Shown one piece after another: positions 32,372-36,954 of a DNA stretch of 55,056 bases; positions within the stretch are counted from its first letter, which is position 1; every line of letters begins with the position of its first letter. The stretch comes from Synechococcus sp. GreenBA-s (GTDB lineage: Bacteria; Cyanobacteriota; Cyanobacteriia; PCC-6307; Cyanobiaceae): assembly GCF_024345855.1 (NCBI RefSeq), contig NZ_JAGQBX010000014.1:1-55056 (forward strand). The letters are read 5' to 3'. The notes under the pieces were generated by a model. It made no database searches. It saw only the letters and a list, made by a program, of their open reading frames with translations, and was not told the origin of the DNA. A program made the translations under genes and the position numbers.

Positions 32372-32891
32372 CCGAACGGGCGGAAGCTGGGGAGTCGGCA
32401 GTCTGCCCCGGCGAGTCCACCGGCACCGACCACCAGCTGGGGGGCCGGACCAGCTCGGCGCCACGGGCCCAGGCCAGCCCCACCCCCAGCACCAGGCTGA
32501 AGACCACCGCCAGGGCCAGCAGCACCAGGGCGAACCACTCACCGCCGGAGAGGTCGCGCCGCACCGAGGCGGGCGGGCGGGCCACCACCCGCCGCAATCC
32601 CGGCGGTGGGGCGGCGGCGGGTGGCGGCGCCAGGGTGGCGACCAGGCTGGCGTCGTAGGCGCGGCGGCGCTCGGGGTCGCTGAGGGCGTGGTAGGCCTGC
32701 TGCAGCCGGCCGAAGGCCTCCTGGGCCTCCGCCTCCGGCAGGGTGGTGGTGTCCGGGTGGTAGAGCTTGCTCAGACGCCGGAAGGCCTGGCGCAGCTCCT
32801 GGGCCGAGGCCGAAGGCTCCAGCTGGAGCAGCGCGTAGTGGTTGGCATGGCCCCTGTGGCGGGCCTCTCCGATGGAATCGCCGGCGACCAC
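32271..32891 (-). CDS. Membrane-anchored J-domain (DnaJ-like) protein
   Basis: About 206 residues from a GTG at 32891 (no ATG is available in frame). The J-domain [20 protein letters not shown] continues to KLYHPDTTT, with the essential HPD present, and ends at [10 protein letters not shown] membrane helix follows ([21 protein letters not shown]). The last 33 residues are Pro/Ala/Gly-rich and are encoded over the start of the DUF3143 gene in a different frame. J-domain proteins recruit and stimulate Hsp70; this one presumably acts at the membrane. Confidence 0.82.
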
Positions 32892-33753: not shown

Positions 33754-34974
33754 TCAGTTCTGCTGCAGCCGGCGCACCGACTCGCCGCCGATCCGCTGCC
33801 GCAGCCGGCGCAGCAGGTCGGGGATCTGTGCGGCCCAGGGGCTCTCGCCGAGCACGCCCAGCAGCTCCGCCTCACTCACCGAGGTGTCGAGCGCATCGGC
33901 GTTGGCGCCGGGGAACCAGTGGCCGCCGGAGCCCAGCAGGCCGTAGCGGGCCCGGCCGAAGCTCTGCAGATCCCAGGCCTCCAGCAGGTTGTGCAGCCAC
34001 AGCAGCACCGGCAGGTTGATCTGGCCAGGGGTGTCCTGCCACTCCGGCAGGCCCTGCTCCCAGCTGGCCAGCCAGGCGTCGCCCAGGGCCTCGCGCCGGG
34101 CCCGCTCCAGCCGCGCCACGATCGGCGGCAGCAGCTCCGCCGCCCGGGGCAGCAGCGCCACGGCCTGCAGGTGCAGCTCCAGGTCCTCCGGCCGGGCAGC
34201 CCCCACGCTGAGGGTGTGGAGGCCGGGGGCCAAGAGGCAGAACAGGTCGTTGAACACGATCGGGTGCAGCGGCGCACACAGCTCCAGCAGCCGCGGCGAC
34301 GGGCTGTGCAGGTGGCCGCCCTTGTCGGTGGGGCTGATCACGAACACGCCCATGTCATGGGCGGTGGCGGCCGCGATCGCCGGGCCGTTGTCCTGGCGGA
34401 TGAAATACCAGTGCAGGTTGATGTAGTCGAAGCGATCCGATTCGATCGCCTCCAGGATCAGCGGCAGGGGGGCATGGGTGGAGAAGCCCACCGATCCAAT
34501 GCGGCCCTCGGCCTGCCAGCGGCGAGCCACGTCCATGCAGCCGCCGGGCCGCAGGGTCTGCTCCAGGTGCTCCGGCAGGTTGAGGCCGTGGATGGCCAGC
34601 AGCGCCACCCGCTCCACCCCCAGCCGCTCAAAGCTCAGGGCCAGTTCCGCCTCAAAGGCCGCCGCATCGTCCTGGGGGGGCACCTTGGTCTGCAGGAGGC
34701 GCCGGGGATCCGGGAACTGGGGCAGCAGCCAGCCCAGCTGGCGCTCCGACGTGCCGTAATGGCGCGCGGTTTCCACGTGGTGGAAGCCATGGGCCACCGC
34801 CAGCTCCAGGGTGGCGCGCAGGTTGGCCTGGCTCTCGGCCGTGATCTGATCGGCGGGCAGGTCGCTCCAGCTCTGCTGGAAGCGCATCCCCCCCAGCGAC
34901 AGCACCGGCATGGCCAGCTCGGTGCGGCCGAAGCGGCGGGTCGGCAGCGGGGCCGGCAGCTCCGGGGATGCCAT
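33754..34974 (-). CDS. Aldo/keto reductase
   Basis: The 406-residue protein has an N-terminal AKR barrel (LGGMRFQQSW, then HHVETARHYGTSE). By position the catalytic tetrad is Glu68, Tyr73, Lys97 (LQTKVPP) and His129 (LAIHGLN); the usual tetrad Asp is therefore Glu. FISPTDKGGHLHSPSPRLLE resembles the larger bacterial AKRs that often occur with iron-sulfur proteins, and the C-terminal 100 residues extend past the barrel. Its start shares a base with the stop of the ferredoxin gene (TGATG), so the ferredoxin could be its partner. Substrate unknown. Confidence 0.87.
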   Translation of the reverse strand: MASPELPAPLPTRRFGRTELAMPVLSLGGMRFQQSWSDLPADQITAESQANLRATLELAVAHGFHHVETARHYGTSERQLGWLLPQFPDPRRLLQTKVPPQDDAAAFEAELALSFERLGVERVALLAIHGLNLPEHLEQTLRPGGCMDVARRWQAEGRIGSVGFSTHAPLPLILEAIESDRFDYINLHWYFIRQDNGPAIAAATAHDMGVFVISPTDKGGHLHSPSPRLLELCAPLHPIVFNDLFCLLAPGLHTLSVGAARPEDLELHLQAVALLPRAAELLPPIVARLERARREALGDAWLASWEQGLPEWQDTPGQINLPVLLWLHNLLEAWDLQSFGRARYGLLGSGGHWFPGANADALDTSVSEAELLGVLGESPWAAQIPDLLRRLRQRIGGESVRRLQQN

Positions 34975-35441
34975 CAGGGCGCTTCACCCAGGGCGGGGCT
35001 GCCCGGTGCGGAACTGCCCAGGGCAGAGCCGCTGAGGGAGGAGTCGGCGCGGGGAATCAGCCGCTTGGGCCGGGCCGCGCTCGGGAGCCCCAGGGGCAGC
35101 AGCTCCTGGCGGCGCGCCTGCTGCTCAAGACCGGCCAGATCCTCGTAGGCGACCCAGTGGATGCAGTCCACCGGACAGGTGTCGATCGCCTCCTGAATCG
35201 TCTCGGTGCTGTCTCCGTCCTGGCGGAGGGCACGGGAGCGGCCCCAGTCGGGCTCCACCACGAAGGTGTTACCGGCCACGTGGGCGCAGTAGCGGCAGCC
35301 GATGCACACGGCCTCGTCCACCCACACCGCCTTCTGGCGCAGCCCACCGCCCAGCAGGGGCTCACGGCCGCTGGGCTCAACGGCGGGAGCAGCGGCCGCC
35401 GCAAAGGCCAGGGAGGGATCGACCGGGACAAGCCGGGGCAC
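34974..35441 (-). CDS. Ferredoxin-like [4Fe-4S] protein, cyanobacterial type
   Basis: The 155-residue protein carries one [4Fe-4S] site: Cys46, Cys49 and Cys52 in VCIGCRYCAHVAGNTF and Cys89 in DTCPVDCIHWV, with an extra Cys93. The C-terminal 45 residues are low-complexity. The start is GTG, directly abutting the ycf35 stop (TGA then GTG). This ferredoxin next to DUF1257 and DUF2997 is a recurrent cyanobacterial arrangement. Its electron partner is unknown; the aldo/keto reductase that overlaps it downstream is a candidate. Confidence 0.88.
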   Translation of the reverse strand: MPRLVPVDPSLAFAAAAAPAVEPSGREPLLGGGLRQKAVWVDEAVCIGCRYCAHVAGNTFVVEPDWGRSRALRQDGDSTETIQEAIDTCPVDCIHWVAYEDLAGLEQQARRQELLPLGLPSAARPKRLIPRADSSLSGSALGSSAPGSPALGEAP

Positions 35442-35834
35442 TCAGCCGTCCCAGCGGGTCACCACCAGCTCGATGCTGCCGTCGAGGGCCTGGCGCTGCT
35501 CGCTCACCTGGAAGCCCTCCTGCTCGGAGGCGGCCAGGATGCTGCGCAGGGCGTAGCGCTGGGTGAGCTGGGCCAGGAAACGCTCCACGGGCACCGGCTG
35601 CTTCCAGAGGTCGAGGTCGGTCACCAGCTCATAGCTGCCGACCTCGGCGTTCCAGCGGAAGCCGATGTCGCTGCCCTGCTCGCTGGCGATGGCCAGGTCG
35701 GCCAGTACGGTCTGGCCGCGGTAGCCGCGCACCGGGCGCTCGCCCTCACTGGGCTGGTGGCCCAGATCGCGCAGGGCATCGAGCAGGGCGCCGCGGTCAC
35801 GGAGTTCCGTCTTGACGGTGCTGAAGTGCGACAT
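35442..35834 (-). CDS. ycf35: Ycf35 / DUF1257 family protein
   Basis: The 130-residue protein begins MSHFSTVKTELRDRGALLDA, the signature start of Ycf35 (DUF1257), and contains SDIGFRWNAEVGSYELVTDL and QRYALRSILAASEQEGFQV. It is conserved in cyanobacteria and some algal plastids with no settled function. It lies 21 bases after DUF2997 and directly before the ferredoxin gene. Confidence 0.93.
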   Translation of the reverse strand: MSHFSTVKTELRDRGALLDALRDLGHQPSEGERPVRGYRGQTVLADLAIASEQGSDIGFRWNAEVGSYELVTDLDLWKQPVPVERFLAQLTQRYALRSILAASEQEGFQVSEQRQALDGSIELVVTRWDG

Positions 35835-35855
35835 GGGGCAGGTCTCGCGGGGAAC

Positions 35856-36080
35856 TCAGGACAGCGGTGCGGTGATGGTCTGCTCGGCGGTCACCGACTG
35901 GCCGGATGGGAGCGCCTGGGGCTGGTAGGCCTCGGAGGTGGCGCGGCGCTGCTGCACCACGCCCAGCTTGGCCTCAATCCGCTCGGTGAGTTCCTCGCAG
36001 CCGCTGCCGGCGATGCCCTCCACCAGCTCCTCCACGCGACCGTCGGGTCGGATGCGGAATCGGATGGTGTGCTGGGCCAT
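35856..36080 (-). CDS. DUF2997-family small protein
   Basis: The 74-residue protein begins MAQHTIRFRIRPDGRVEELV and continues GSGCEELTERIEAKLG, the DUF2997 pattern: a short beta hairpin with a conserved Cys (in GSGCEEL). Function unknown. It opens the tightly packed DUF2997-ycf35-ferredoxin-AKR run; the next gene upstream, the HEAT protein, ends 73 bases away on the same strand. Confidence 0.85.
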   Translation of the reverse strand: MAQHTIRFRIRPDGRVEELVEGIAGSGCEELTERIEAKLGVVQQRRATSEAYQPQALPSGQSVTAEQTITAPLS

Positions 36081-36153: not shown

Positions 36154-36954
36154 TCAGCTCAGCAGCCCCTCGTCCACCAGCGTCTGCAGGCGCTCCAGCA
36201 CCAGCGGATCCTCCAGCTGCTCCAGGGCGAGGCGGGCCTCGTCGCGCACGGTCAGGTCGCCGTCGTGGAGCATGGCCTTGAGCAGGGCCTCCACCACCTC
36301 CCGCTGGCGCGGCTCCACCAGATCGGGGTAGAGGCGGCCCAACGACCAGGCGCAGTTGCTGCGCACCACCGGTTCGCTGTCGATGCGCAGGCTGAGCAGC
36401 AGCTGGCCAGCGGCCTGATCGGCCTTGGCCAGACCCGTGGCACCGGCGTCGGCCAGGGAGCTGGCGGCCCAGAGGCGCACGGCGGCGATGTCGTTCTGCA
36501 GGGCCCGGATCAGGGGATTCATCACCGGGGCGTCCGGGTAGCTGCCCAGGCTCCAGGCCACGGCCTTGCGCACGTAGCCGTTGCTGTCGTTCTGGAGCAG
36601 AGCCAGCAGCGGGGTCACGGCCTGCAGGTCAGGGTTGCGGCCCAGGGCATAGACCGCGCTCATGCGCAGGATCGGGCAGCTGGCCTCCAGCAGGGGCAGC
36701 AGCTGGGCCGGAGCGCGCGGGTCGCGGTGCTCGCAGAAGATGCGCAGCCCCTGCATCCGCTCCTCATGGCTGCCGCGCAGCAGCTGCAGGCCCAGGTCGC
36801 ACTCGGCGGCCACATCCGCCTCGCCGGGATCGAGGGCGTCCAGGTCGTCGAGGGGATCCCCCAGCAGTTCCTCCGCCAGCTCCGAGGCGAGCACCTCCGG
36901 ATCCAGGGCCAGCTCGGCCGGGCTGTGGGAGAACGGTGGAAAGGGGTCCGTCAT
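36154..36954 (-). CDS. HEAT-repeat protein
   Basis: The 266-residue alpha-solenoid protein has an acidic first 50 residues and then about five HEAT-type repeats, recognisable in CPILRMSAVYALGRNPDLQ, GYVRKAVAWSLGSYPDA, AVRLWAASSLADAGATG, PVVRSNCAWSLGRLYPD and LTVRDEARLALEQLEDP. In cyanobacteria this fold is common in CpcE/F-type phycobilin lyases and in PBS degradation proteins, but I do not see enough to call it one; it may simply be a scaffold. Same strand as the DUF2997-ycf35 run, and possibly in the same transcript. Confidence 0.8.
   Translation of the reverse strand: MTDPFPPFSHSPAELALDPEVLASELAEELLGDPLDDLDALDPGEADVAAECDLGLQLLRGSHEERMQGLRIFCEHRDPRAPAQLLPLLEASCPILRMSAVYALGRNPDLQAVTPLLALLQNDSNGYVRKAVAWSLGSYPDAPVMNPLIRALQNDIAAVRLWAASSLADAGATGLAKADQAAGQLLLSLRIDSEPVVRSNCAWSLGRLYPDLVEPRQREVVEALLKAMLHDGDLTVRDEARLALEQLEDPLVLERLQTLVDEGLLS

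Follow-up and report, generated by a model that had tools for sequence, protein, structure and literature searches.

We describe a run of five genes on the minus strand of a 55,056-nucleotide stretch of DNA (the window; positions 1 to 55,056 of contig NZ_JAGQBX010000014.1 of Synechococcus sp. GreenBA-s), which encode, in order of transcription, a HEAT-repeat protein, a DUF2997 protein, Ycf35 (DUF1257), the ferredoxin Fed7 and an aldo/keto reductase (AKR). The central trio is itself already known; the partnership with an ATPase that we propose for it is a new reading. From gene neighbourhoods we tentatively suggest that Ycf35 and DUF2997 may serve a Ycf46-type AAA+ machine as accessory subunits and that Fed7 may provide its redox input, a reading that we hold to be plausible while stopping short of calling it probable. 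Relatives of DUF1257 and DUF2997 are encoded beside this type of ATPase, probably Ycf46/Slr0374, in several lineages. Ycf35 is an unassigned reading frame of plastids and cyanobacteria; that its family is repeatedly linked to one AAA+ type and an Hsp70-like gene, in both bacteria and archaea and in one case directly with the trio, turns an 'unknown redox protein' into an experiment.

Gene neighbourhoods of DUF1257 and DUF2997 relatives

The comparisons drew on 146 genomes sampled from the phylum, of which 64, all Cyanobacteriia and distributed over 22 families, have Fed7, and on a second sample of 121 genomes from the family to which the window belongs, presumably that of Cyanobium, marine Synechococcus and Prochlorococcus. 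Profiles of AAA+ and Hsp70-like proteins were built from proteins of the opened loci themselves, and thus the matches to loci L033-L042 included below are in part a matter of construction. A short DUF1257 paralogue, covering columns 1 to ~90 of the profile, is present, among the matches listed, in 57 Cyanobacteriia outside the window's family, in every case (57 of 57) together with an AAA+ gene on the same strand, with 146-526 bp between the two matches. This figure counts one row per genome; G097:C71, G068:C1:1121235 and G145:C5 were left out of it, and further short matches in genomes already counted, as well as rows beyond those listed, with the window genome's own copy among them, also lie outside it. 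The AAA+ protein next to the short DUF1257 matches Pfam AAA at 1.9e-28.

DUF2997 is found beside the same ATPase in a non-photosynthetic family (f24) with genomes of ~2 Mb, which has no Fed7 and no DUF1257 by Pfam (weak DUF1257-like matches occur in L079 and L085): there, DUF2997 lies no more than 1.5 kb from AAA+, on the same strand, at all 16 places. In G016 (L086), Hsp70-like, AAA+, DUF2997 and DUF1257 genes follow one another on one strand, so that 17 of the 24 DUF2997 places outside Cyanobacteriia (16 in f24 and the one in G016) are near AAA+, flanks having been read at all of the 24 but those in G032 and G038. A radical-SAM gene also stands in the same run in the seven f24 loci opened (L079-L085; recognised by Fer4_12 in one and by eye in six), and in these runs of non-photosynthetic bacteria, as in that of the methanogen L114, the radical-SAM protein is another Fe-S protein in the place where cyanobacteria have Fed7.

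Among the 82 genomes outside Cyanobacteriia, AAA+ (best E-value 2.4e-81 or lower) occurs together with at least one of the two DUF families in 24, AAA+ alone in 5, a DUF alone in 1 (G096) and neither in 52 (Fisher 8e-15, not corrected for relatedness).

Within Cyanobacteriia we opened twelve accessory loci (L033-L044), chosen because DUF1257 is close to DUF2997 or part of a long frame; AAA+ is present in 10 of the 12, an Hsp70-like gene in 8 and GrpE in one. The proteins at L038 6278-7690 and L040 3083-4180 share a similar HEAT-like start and differ in their C-terminal parts (pentapeptide repeats and FGE-sulfatase), and L043 5602-7275 is a 557-residue frame whose last ~90 residues are DUF1257 and whose remainder has no Pfam match, possibly a fusion. 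As for plasmids, the four loci opened from 13 DUF1257 records all hold a gene annotated as AAA family ATPase, and one of them also holds grpE and Hsp70.

A pattern scan of genome_contigs, in which the query was the DUF1257 type of other phylum members and neighbours were not a criterion, returned 23 loci. Seventeen of these lie outside Cyanobacteriota (15 in methanogens of the Methanomicrobiales, one in a member of the Hydrogenedentota and one in a deltaproteobacterium), and AAA+ adjoins DUF1257 in 16 of them, while 13 hold an Hsp70-like gene; in the exception for AAA+, L111, the sequence ends 13 bases past the match. The order in L114 is radical-SAM, DUF1257, AAA+, WD40-repeat protein, Hsp70-like. 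None of the six Cyanobacteriota loci of the scan, Sericytochromatia included, has the AAA+ gene; three of them are the records L045, L047 and L051.

Small partners encoded beside an ATPase and an Hsp70-like gene recall the AAA+ proteins with small adaptors and the Hsp70/J-protein systems. To our knowledge no described adaptor family includes DUF1257 or DUF2997, and a literature search for Ycf46 with Hsp70 and AAA, subscription papers being outside its scope, gave no match.

Probable identity and distribution of the ATPase

Papers are cited here by PMC number. Slr0374 has been named Ycf46, and its operon reacts to a lack of iron, to high light and to oxidative stress (PMC7496141), conditions that overlap with those reported for fed7. 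A light-responsive peptide of Slr0374, residues 260-271 with Cys269, is 91.6% reduced in the light and 78.3% in the dark (PMC13214033). In the AAA+ genes that we read beside the short DUF1257, a cysteine in the P-loop (GVPGCGKS) is present in 22 of 22, from 20 families (L071, L072, L217-L236), and the tryptic peptide containing this P-loop fits the Slr0374 peptide in length (12 residues), in the position of the cysteine (10) and in the closing lysine. The length and cysteine position of this one peptide suggest that the ATPase is probably of the Ycf46/Slr0374 type.

The window genome has such a Ycf46-type AAA+ gene (C41:3237-4742, E-value 9e-111), as have all 64 Cyanobacteriia at 9e-111 or lower; in the window's family an orthologue is found in 109 of 121 genomes, and in 76 of the 76 of good quality. 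In the four sampled genomes of one genus of this family (g85), AAA+, HEAT, DUF2997, ycf35 and fed7 stand in a row, followed in G254 also by AKR, and the ATPase shares 66-67% identity with that of the window genome. The g85 arrangement joins the trio with the partner to which the paralogues point.

Proposed mechanism and points against it

According to the mechanism that we envisage, DUF2997 and Ycf35 would act as a pair of small adaptor or regulatory subunits, in complex with a protein-remodelling ATPase of the Ycf46 type, a machine whose gene elsewhere often accompanies one for an Hsp70-like protein. The pair would be tied, in Cyanobacteriia, to Fed7, which might deliver a redox and iron signal through its cluster or its extra cysteine; given the published link of Fed7 to FtrC and DnaJ, the remodelling of a client protein could then respond to light, to iron and to the oxidative state of the cell. 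A scaffold role may fall to the HEAT protein, and AKR would be a lineage-specific passenger or side enzyme. In the window genome, where the ATPase gene is on another contig, the partnership would presumably operate in trans. Were this true, Fed7-DnaJ, Ycf46 and Ycf35 would be joined in one stress pathway, and two 'hypothetical' cyanophage genes would gain names.

We are clearly more doubtful about a wider scenario, according to which an ancient AAA+/Hsp70-like machine with Ycf35/DUF2997 subunits would be common to methanogens, non-photosynthetic bacteria and cyanobacteria, Fed7 would have added sensitivity to light and iron in oxygenic phototrophs, plastid ycf35 and ycf46 would be remnants of it, and a cyanophage copy of the adaptor would redirect the host ATPase.

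Several observations weigh against an ATPase partnership. In the window there is no AAA+ gene beside the DUF pair, the sole strong match in the genome being the one on contig C41; across the family, fed7 and AAA+ are no more than 10 kb apart in only 4 of the 102 genomes with both, and since all four belong to g85 they represent one evolutionary event. The family AAA+ also lacks the P-loop cysteine (its motif is GPQGTGKS). The window genome does have a second DUF1257, a divergent short form (G000:C23:63993-64244, L002; 49 bits), with no AAA+ gene beside it in the fetched stretch L070. Outside Cyanobacteriia, AAA+ is absent from the flanks of five of six further DUF2997 places (L052, L087-L090), some of these flanks being short and one contig measuring 3.7 kb, and from those of all seven DUF1257 loci of other phylum members (L045-L051), again with some short flanks; in five of the 82 genomes considered above AAA+ is present without either DUF. 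The archaeal loci form one clade in the tree, and therefore the methanogens stand for few independent events. Finally, the Ycf35 model has no telling fold match: Foldseek found none at an E-value of 0.001, and the best structural neighbour, a KA1 domain (VIA Z 6.5, rmsd 3.5 over 79 residues), is within the background range. Separately, the window genome's short DUF1257 adjoins a frame that by eye resembles purN.

The gene cluster of the window and its conservation

The genes of the cluster and a nearby J-domain gene are as follows.

36154..36954, minus strand: HEAT-repeat protein, 266 amino acids (Pfam HEAT_2 6e-28, HEAT_PBS 9e-15)
35856..36080, minus strand: DUF2997 protein, 74 amino acids, invariant Gly14 and Cys28 (PF11211 2.3e-19)
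35442..35834, minus strand: Ycf35/DUF1257, 130 amino acids, invariant Ser2, His3 and Gly58 (PF06868 2.2e-37)
34974..35441, minus strand: Fed7-type single [4Fe-4S] ferredoxin, motifs CIGCRYC and CPVDC (PF13370, Fer4_13, 2.6e-15)
33754..34974, minus strand: AKR, 406 amino acids (PF00248, Aldo_ket_red, 7e-12)
32433..32843, minus strand: small J-domain protein, start approximate, a neighbour outside the proposed unit (1.1e-24 match to a J protein of the family)

A first-pass annotation of the window had described the last four genes of the run as a candidate uncharacterised redox system, on the minus strand with junctions of +21, 0 and -1 bases, and gene calls and Pfam agree with it on the genes, their strand and their junctions, as they do on a single-cluster ferredoxin. 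It omitted the HEAT gene (36954-36154), which lies on the same strand 73 bases ahead of DUF2997, so that the successive gaps from HEAT to AKR are 73, 21, 0 and -1 bases. The GTG start of the ferredoxin is directly 3' of the ycf35 TGA, and the AKR start and the fed7 stop share one base. The Pfam matches of DUF2997, ycf35, ferredoxin and AKR all exceed the curated cut-offs (for AKR, 45.5 bits versus a PF00248 cut-off of 24). Spacing and conservation suggest that the five genes, from HEAT to AKR, probably form a single transcription unit.

All 64 Cyanobacteriia (64 of 64) have DUF2997, ycf35 and fed7 in colinear order on a single strand, which exceeds chance; in two of them, G109 and G119, the DUF2997 match is 1.7-1.9 kb away from that of ycf35. 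The same three genes, in the same order and with the same ferredoxin type, constitute 'cluster g' of a review of Synechocystis ferredoxins, where the cluster is assigned to most of the cyanobacteria tabulated, Cyanobium gracile included (PMC4284462). That the three recur together, as the first-pass annotation had it, is borne out, and so is its view that the genes belong to one unit, which is conserved. The HEAT gene upstream and AKR downstream, seen in the window's family, are absent from the legend to cluster g; Prochlorococcus strains are marked g', which may denote a longer cluster. No AAA+ association appears in the account of cluster g available in that review.

AKR has a different distribution. 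An orthologue (E-value 1e-100 or better) is found in 61 of the 64 Cyanobacteriia and is near fed7 only in the six genomes of this sample that belong to the window's family and, at a distance of 806 bp, in G036, which is 1 of the 58 Cyanobacteriia outside the family; the other 54 orthologues are on a different contig or more than 20 kb away. Among the 121 family genomes, fed7 is present in 111, AKR (E-value 1e-60) in 104 and both in 103, and AKR adjoins fed7 (-64 to +142 bases) in 100 of these 103, the exceptions being G153, G203 and G231; eight of the 111 genomes with fed7 have no AKR match, four of these being 99% complete. In 111 of 111, a HEAT gene precedes fed7 on the same strand at 648-1092 bases. 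This constancy of HEAT, next to an AKR that is usually attached and sometimes absent, defines a family unit HEAT-DUF2997-ycf35-fed7 with AKR as a dispensable extra. AKR is thus a family-level attachment, usual yet dispensable; its candidacy as a core member was rejected in general and retained as a family trait. The first-pass annotation would have been contradicted by an AKR adjacent in this genome alone and by a ferredoxin gene usually separate from ycf35; the survey shows neither.

The same annotation had proposed that electrons pass between the ferredoxin and a complex of Ycf35 and DUF2997, and that AKR processes a linked metabolite. Tight packing and the adjacency of AKR to fed7 in the family speak for such a reading, which we nonetheless consider quite improbable: the rarity of this adjacency outside the family and the genomes with fed7 and no AKR leave the metabolic role of AKR unsupported, no evidence for the electron flow was found, Pfam recognises no cofactor site in either Ycf35 or DUF2997, and DUF1257 or DUF2997 occur in non-photosynthetic genomes and viral loci without a Fed7 match. 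The catalytic tetrad of AKRs is Asp-Tyr-Lys-His. In the 12 aligned orthologues, glutamate replaces the aspartate and the tyrosine is present in 12 of 12 (ETA..YG.SE), a TK motif is found in 11, and the histidine was seen by eye in the window protein only. An AKR paralogue occurs elsewhere in the window genome (C68; L069).

Fed7, stress expression and invariant residues

The designation 'uncharacterised' holds for Ycf35 and DUF2997 and not for the ferredoxin, since Fed7 (sll0662 in Synechocystis) has published partners and mutant phenotypes (PMC4284462). In two-hybrid assays, in Synechocystis only, it interacts with the DnaJ protein Sll1384 and with FtrC; it acts with glutaredoxin 2 (Grx2); mutants without it are less tolerant of oxidative, metal, salt and low-iron stress; and fed7 increases when iron or carbon is low and in high light (PMC4284462). 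A Fed7-like domain is likewise tied to a chaperone component in the DnaJ-Fer proteins of plants and thaumarchaea (PMC3564930; linked to Fed7 in PMC4284462), whereas Fed7 of the window is a separate protein.

Five cysteine columns of Fed7 are kept in 39 of 39 aligned relatives. In DUF2997, Gly14 and Cys28 are invariant in 42 of 42 rows, which confirms the conserved cysteine noted earlier, and in Ycf35 Ser2, His3 and Gly58 are invariant in 51 of 51. The cysteines of DUF2997 and Fed7 are compatible with a thiol-redox relay, in which Fed7, placed between FtrC and Grx2 in the published pathway (PMC4284462), would reduce or oxidise Cys28 of DUF2997 with Ycf35 as a partner and with no AAA+ protein acting in the trio. 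We consider this unlikely, as it leaves the AAA+ linkage unexplained, and the cysteine is also kept where no Fed7 match exists, in phages and in other members of the phylum, so that Fed7 does not account for its invariance. Ycf35 was modelled well (pLDDT 90.2), as a fold of seven strands with two helices, and DUF2997 moderately (pLDDT 77.3); the DUF2997 model had no telling match in the fold searches, and no enzyme is indicated.

Expression bears on two further explanations. The three core genes (ssl1263, fed7 and ycf35) depend on SigD (PMC8875361), and in 127 red algal plastids the presence of ycf35, ycf34, ycf46 and pbsA tracks habitat (PMC5940233). Together with the induction of fed7, and with a phage in which the pair sits between hli genes and psbA, these data would suit a stress-induced assembly factor that needs no ATPase and helps to build or repair a component of a photosystem or an Fe-S component, in acclimation of photosynthesis or to iron. 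Such a role strikes us as just as unlikely as the thiol relay, given that DUF1257 or DUF2997 also occur in methanogens and in members of the phylum that lack Fed7, and that psbA was matched in no more than 6 of 80 viral loci, although the flanks of many are short. SigD dependence would also be expected if unrelated stress proteins merely shared one transcript; colinearity in 64 of 64 genomes across 22 families, and the DUF2997/Ycf35 pair alone in phages, make this very improbable. The expression of fed7 and of the slr0374 operon and the plastid habitat data fit the proposed partnership with the Ycf46-type ATPase, but are not proof of it.

Phage copies

DUF2997 has already been reported from other bacterial phyla, archaea and some viruses (preprint PMC13131479). 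In phage records we matched Ycf35 in 15 and DUF2997 in 9. In P-SSM2 and P-SSM7 they are overlapping genes, flanked in P-SSM7 by hli genes and psbA, and the hypothetical cyanophage genes T4-GC 174 and 175 correspond to DUF2997 and Ycf35 respectively, again overlapping (L073 5802-6381, L074 5832-6384). A literature search for cyanophage and ycf35, with subscription papers outside its scope, gave no match.

Of 139 relatives found in viral_contigs, 80 were retained (L130-L209), with flanks of at most 5 kb. DUF2997 is beside Ycf35 in 77 of these, and the remaining three have almost no upstream DNA; within these flanks there is no profile match to Fed7, AAA+, AKR or Hsp70-like proteins, and thus the smallest travelling unit consists of DUF2997 and Ycf35. 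The eight phage rows used in a 94-row tree form a single group next to G107 of the window's family (1.7 Mb; support 99/76, with a long-branch warning), as expected for a host-derived gene. Two long viral contigs (L215, L216) carry a DUF2997 of another type.

Neighbouring genes

Downstream of AKR are rsmG, on the plus strand and convergent, then the small J-domain gene and a DUF3143 gene. The family J protein that the J-domain gene matches is itself a DnaJ match in Pfam (2e-20). By eye, suhB and hisZ were not recognised beside relatives of this gene in nine loci, in one of which the J gene was lost by the gene caller, and DUF3143 adjoins in four of the nine; for these reasons we do not claim it as Sll1384. 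In all six genomes of the phylum sample that belong to the family, a small J-domain gene lies ~2.5 kb or less from fed7; one also follows soon after fed7 in G019 (compare L102 5725-6291).

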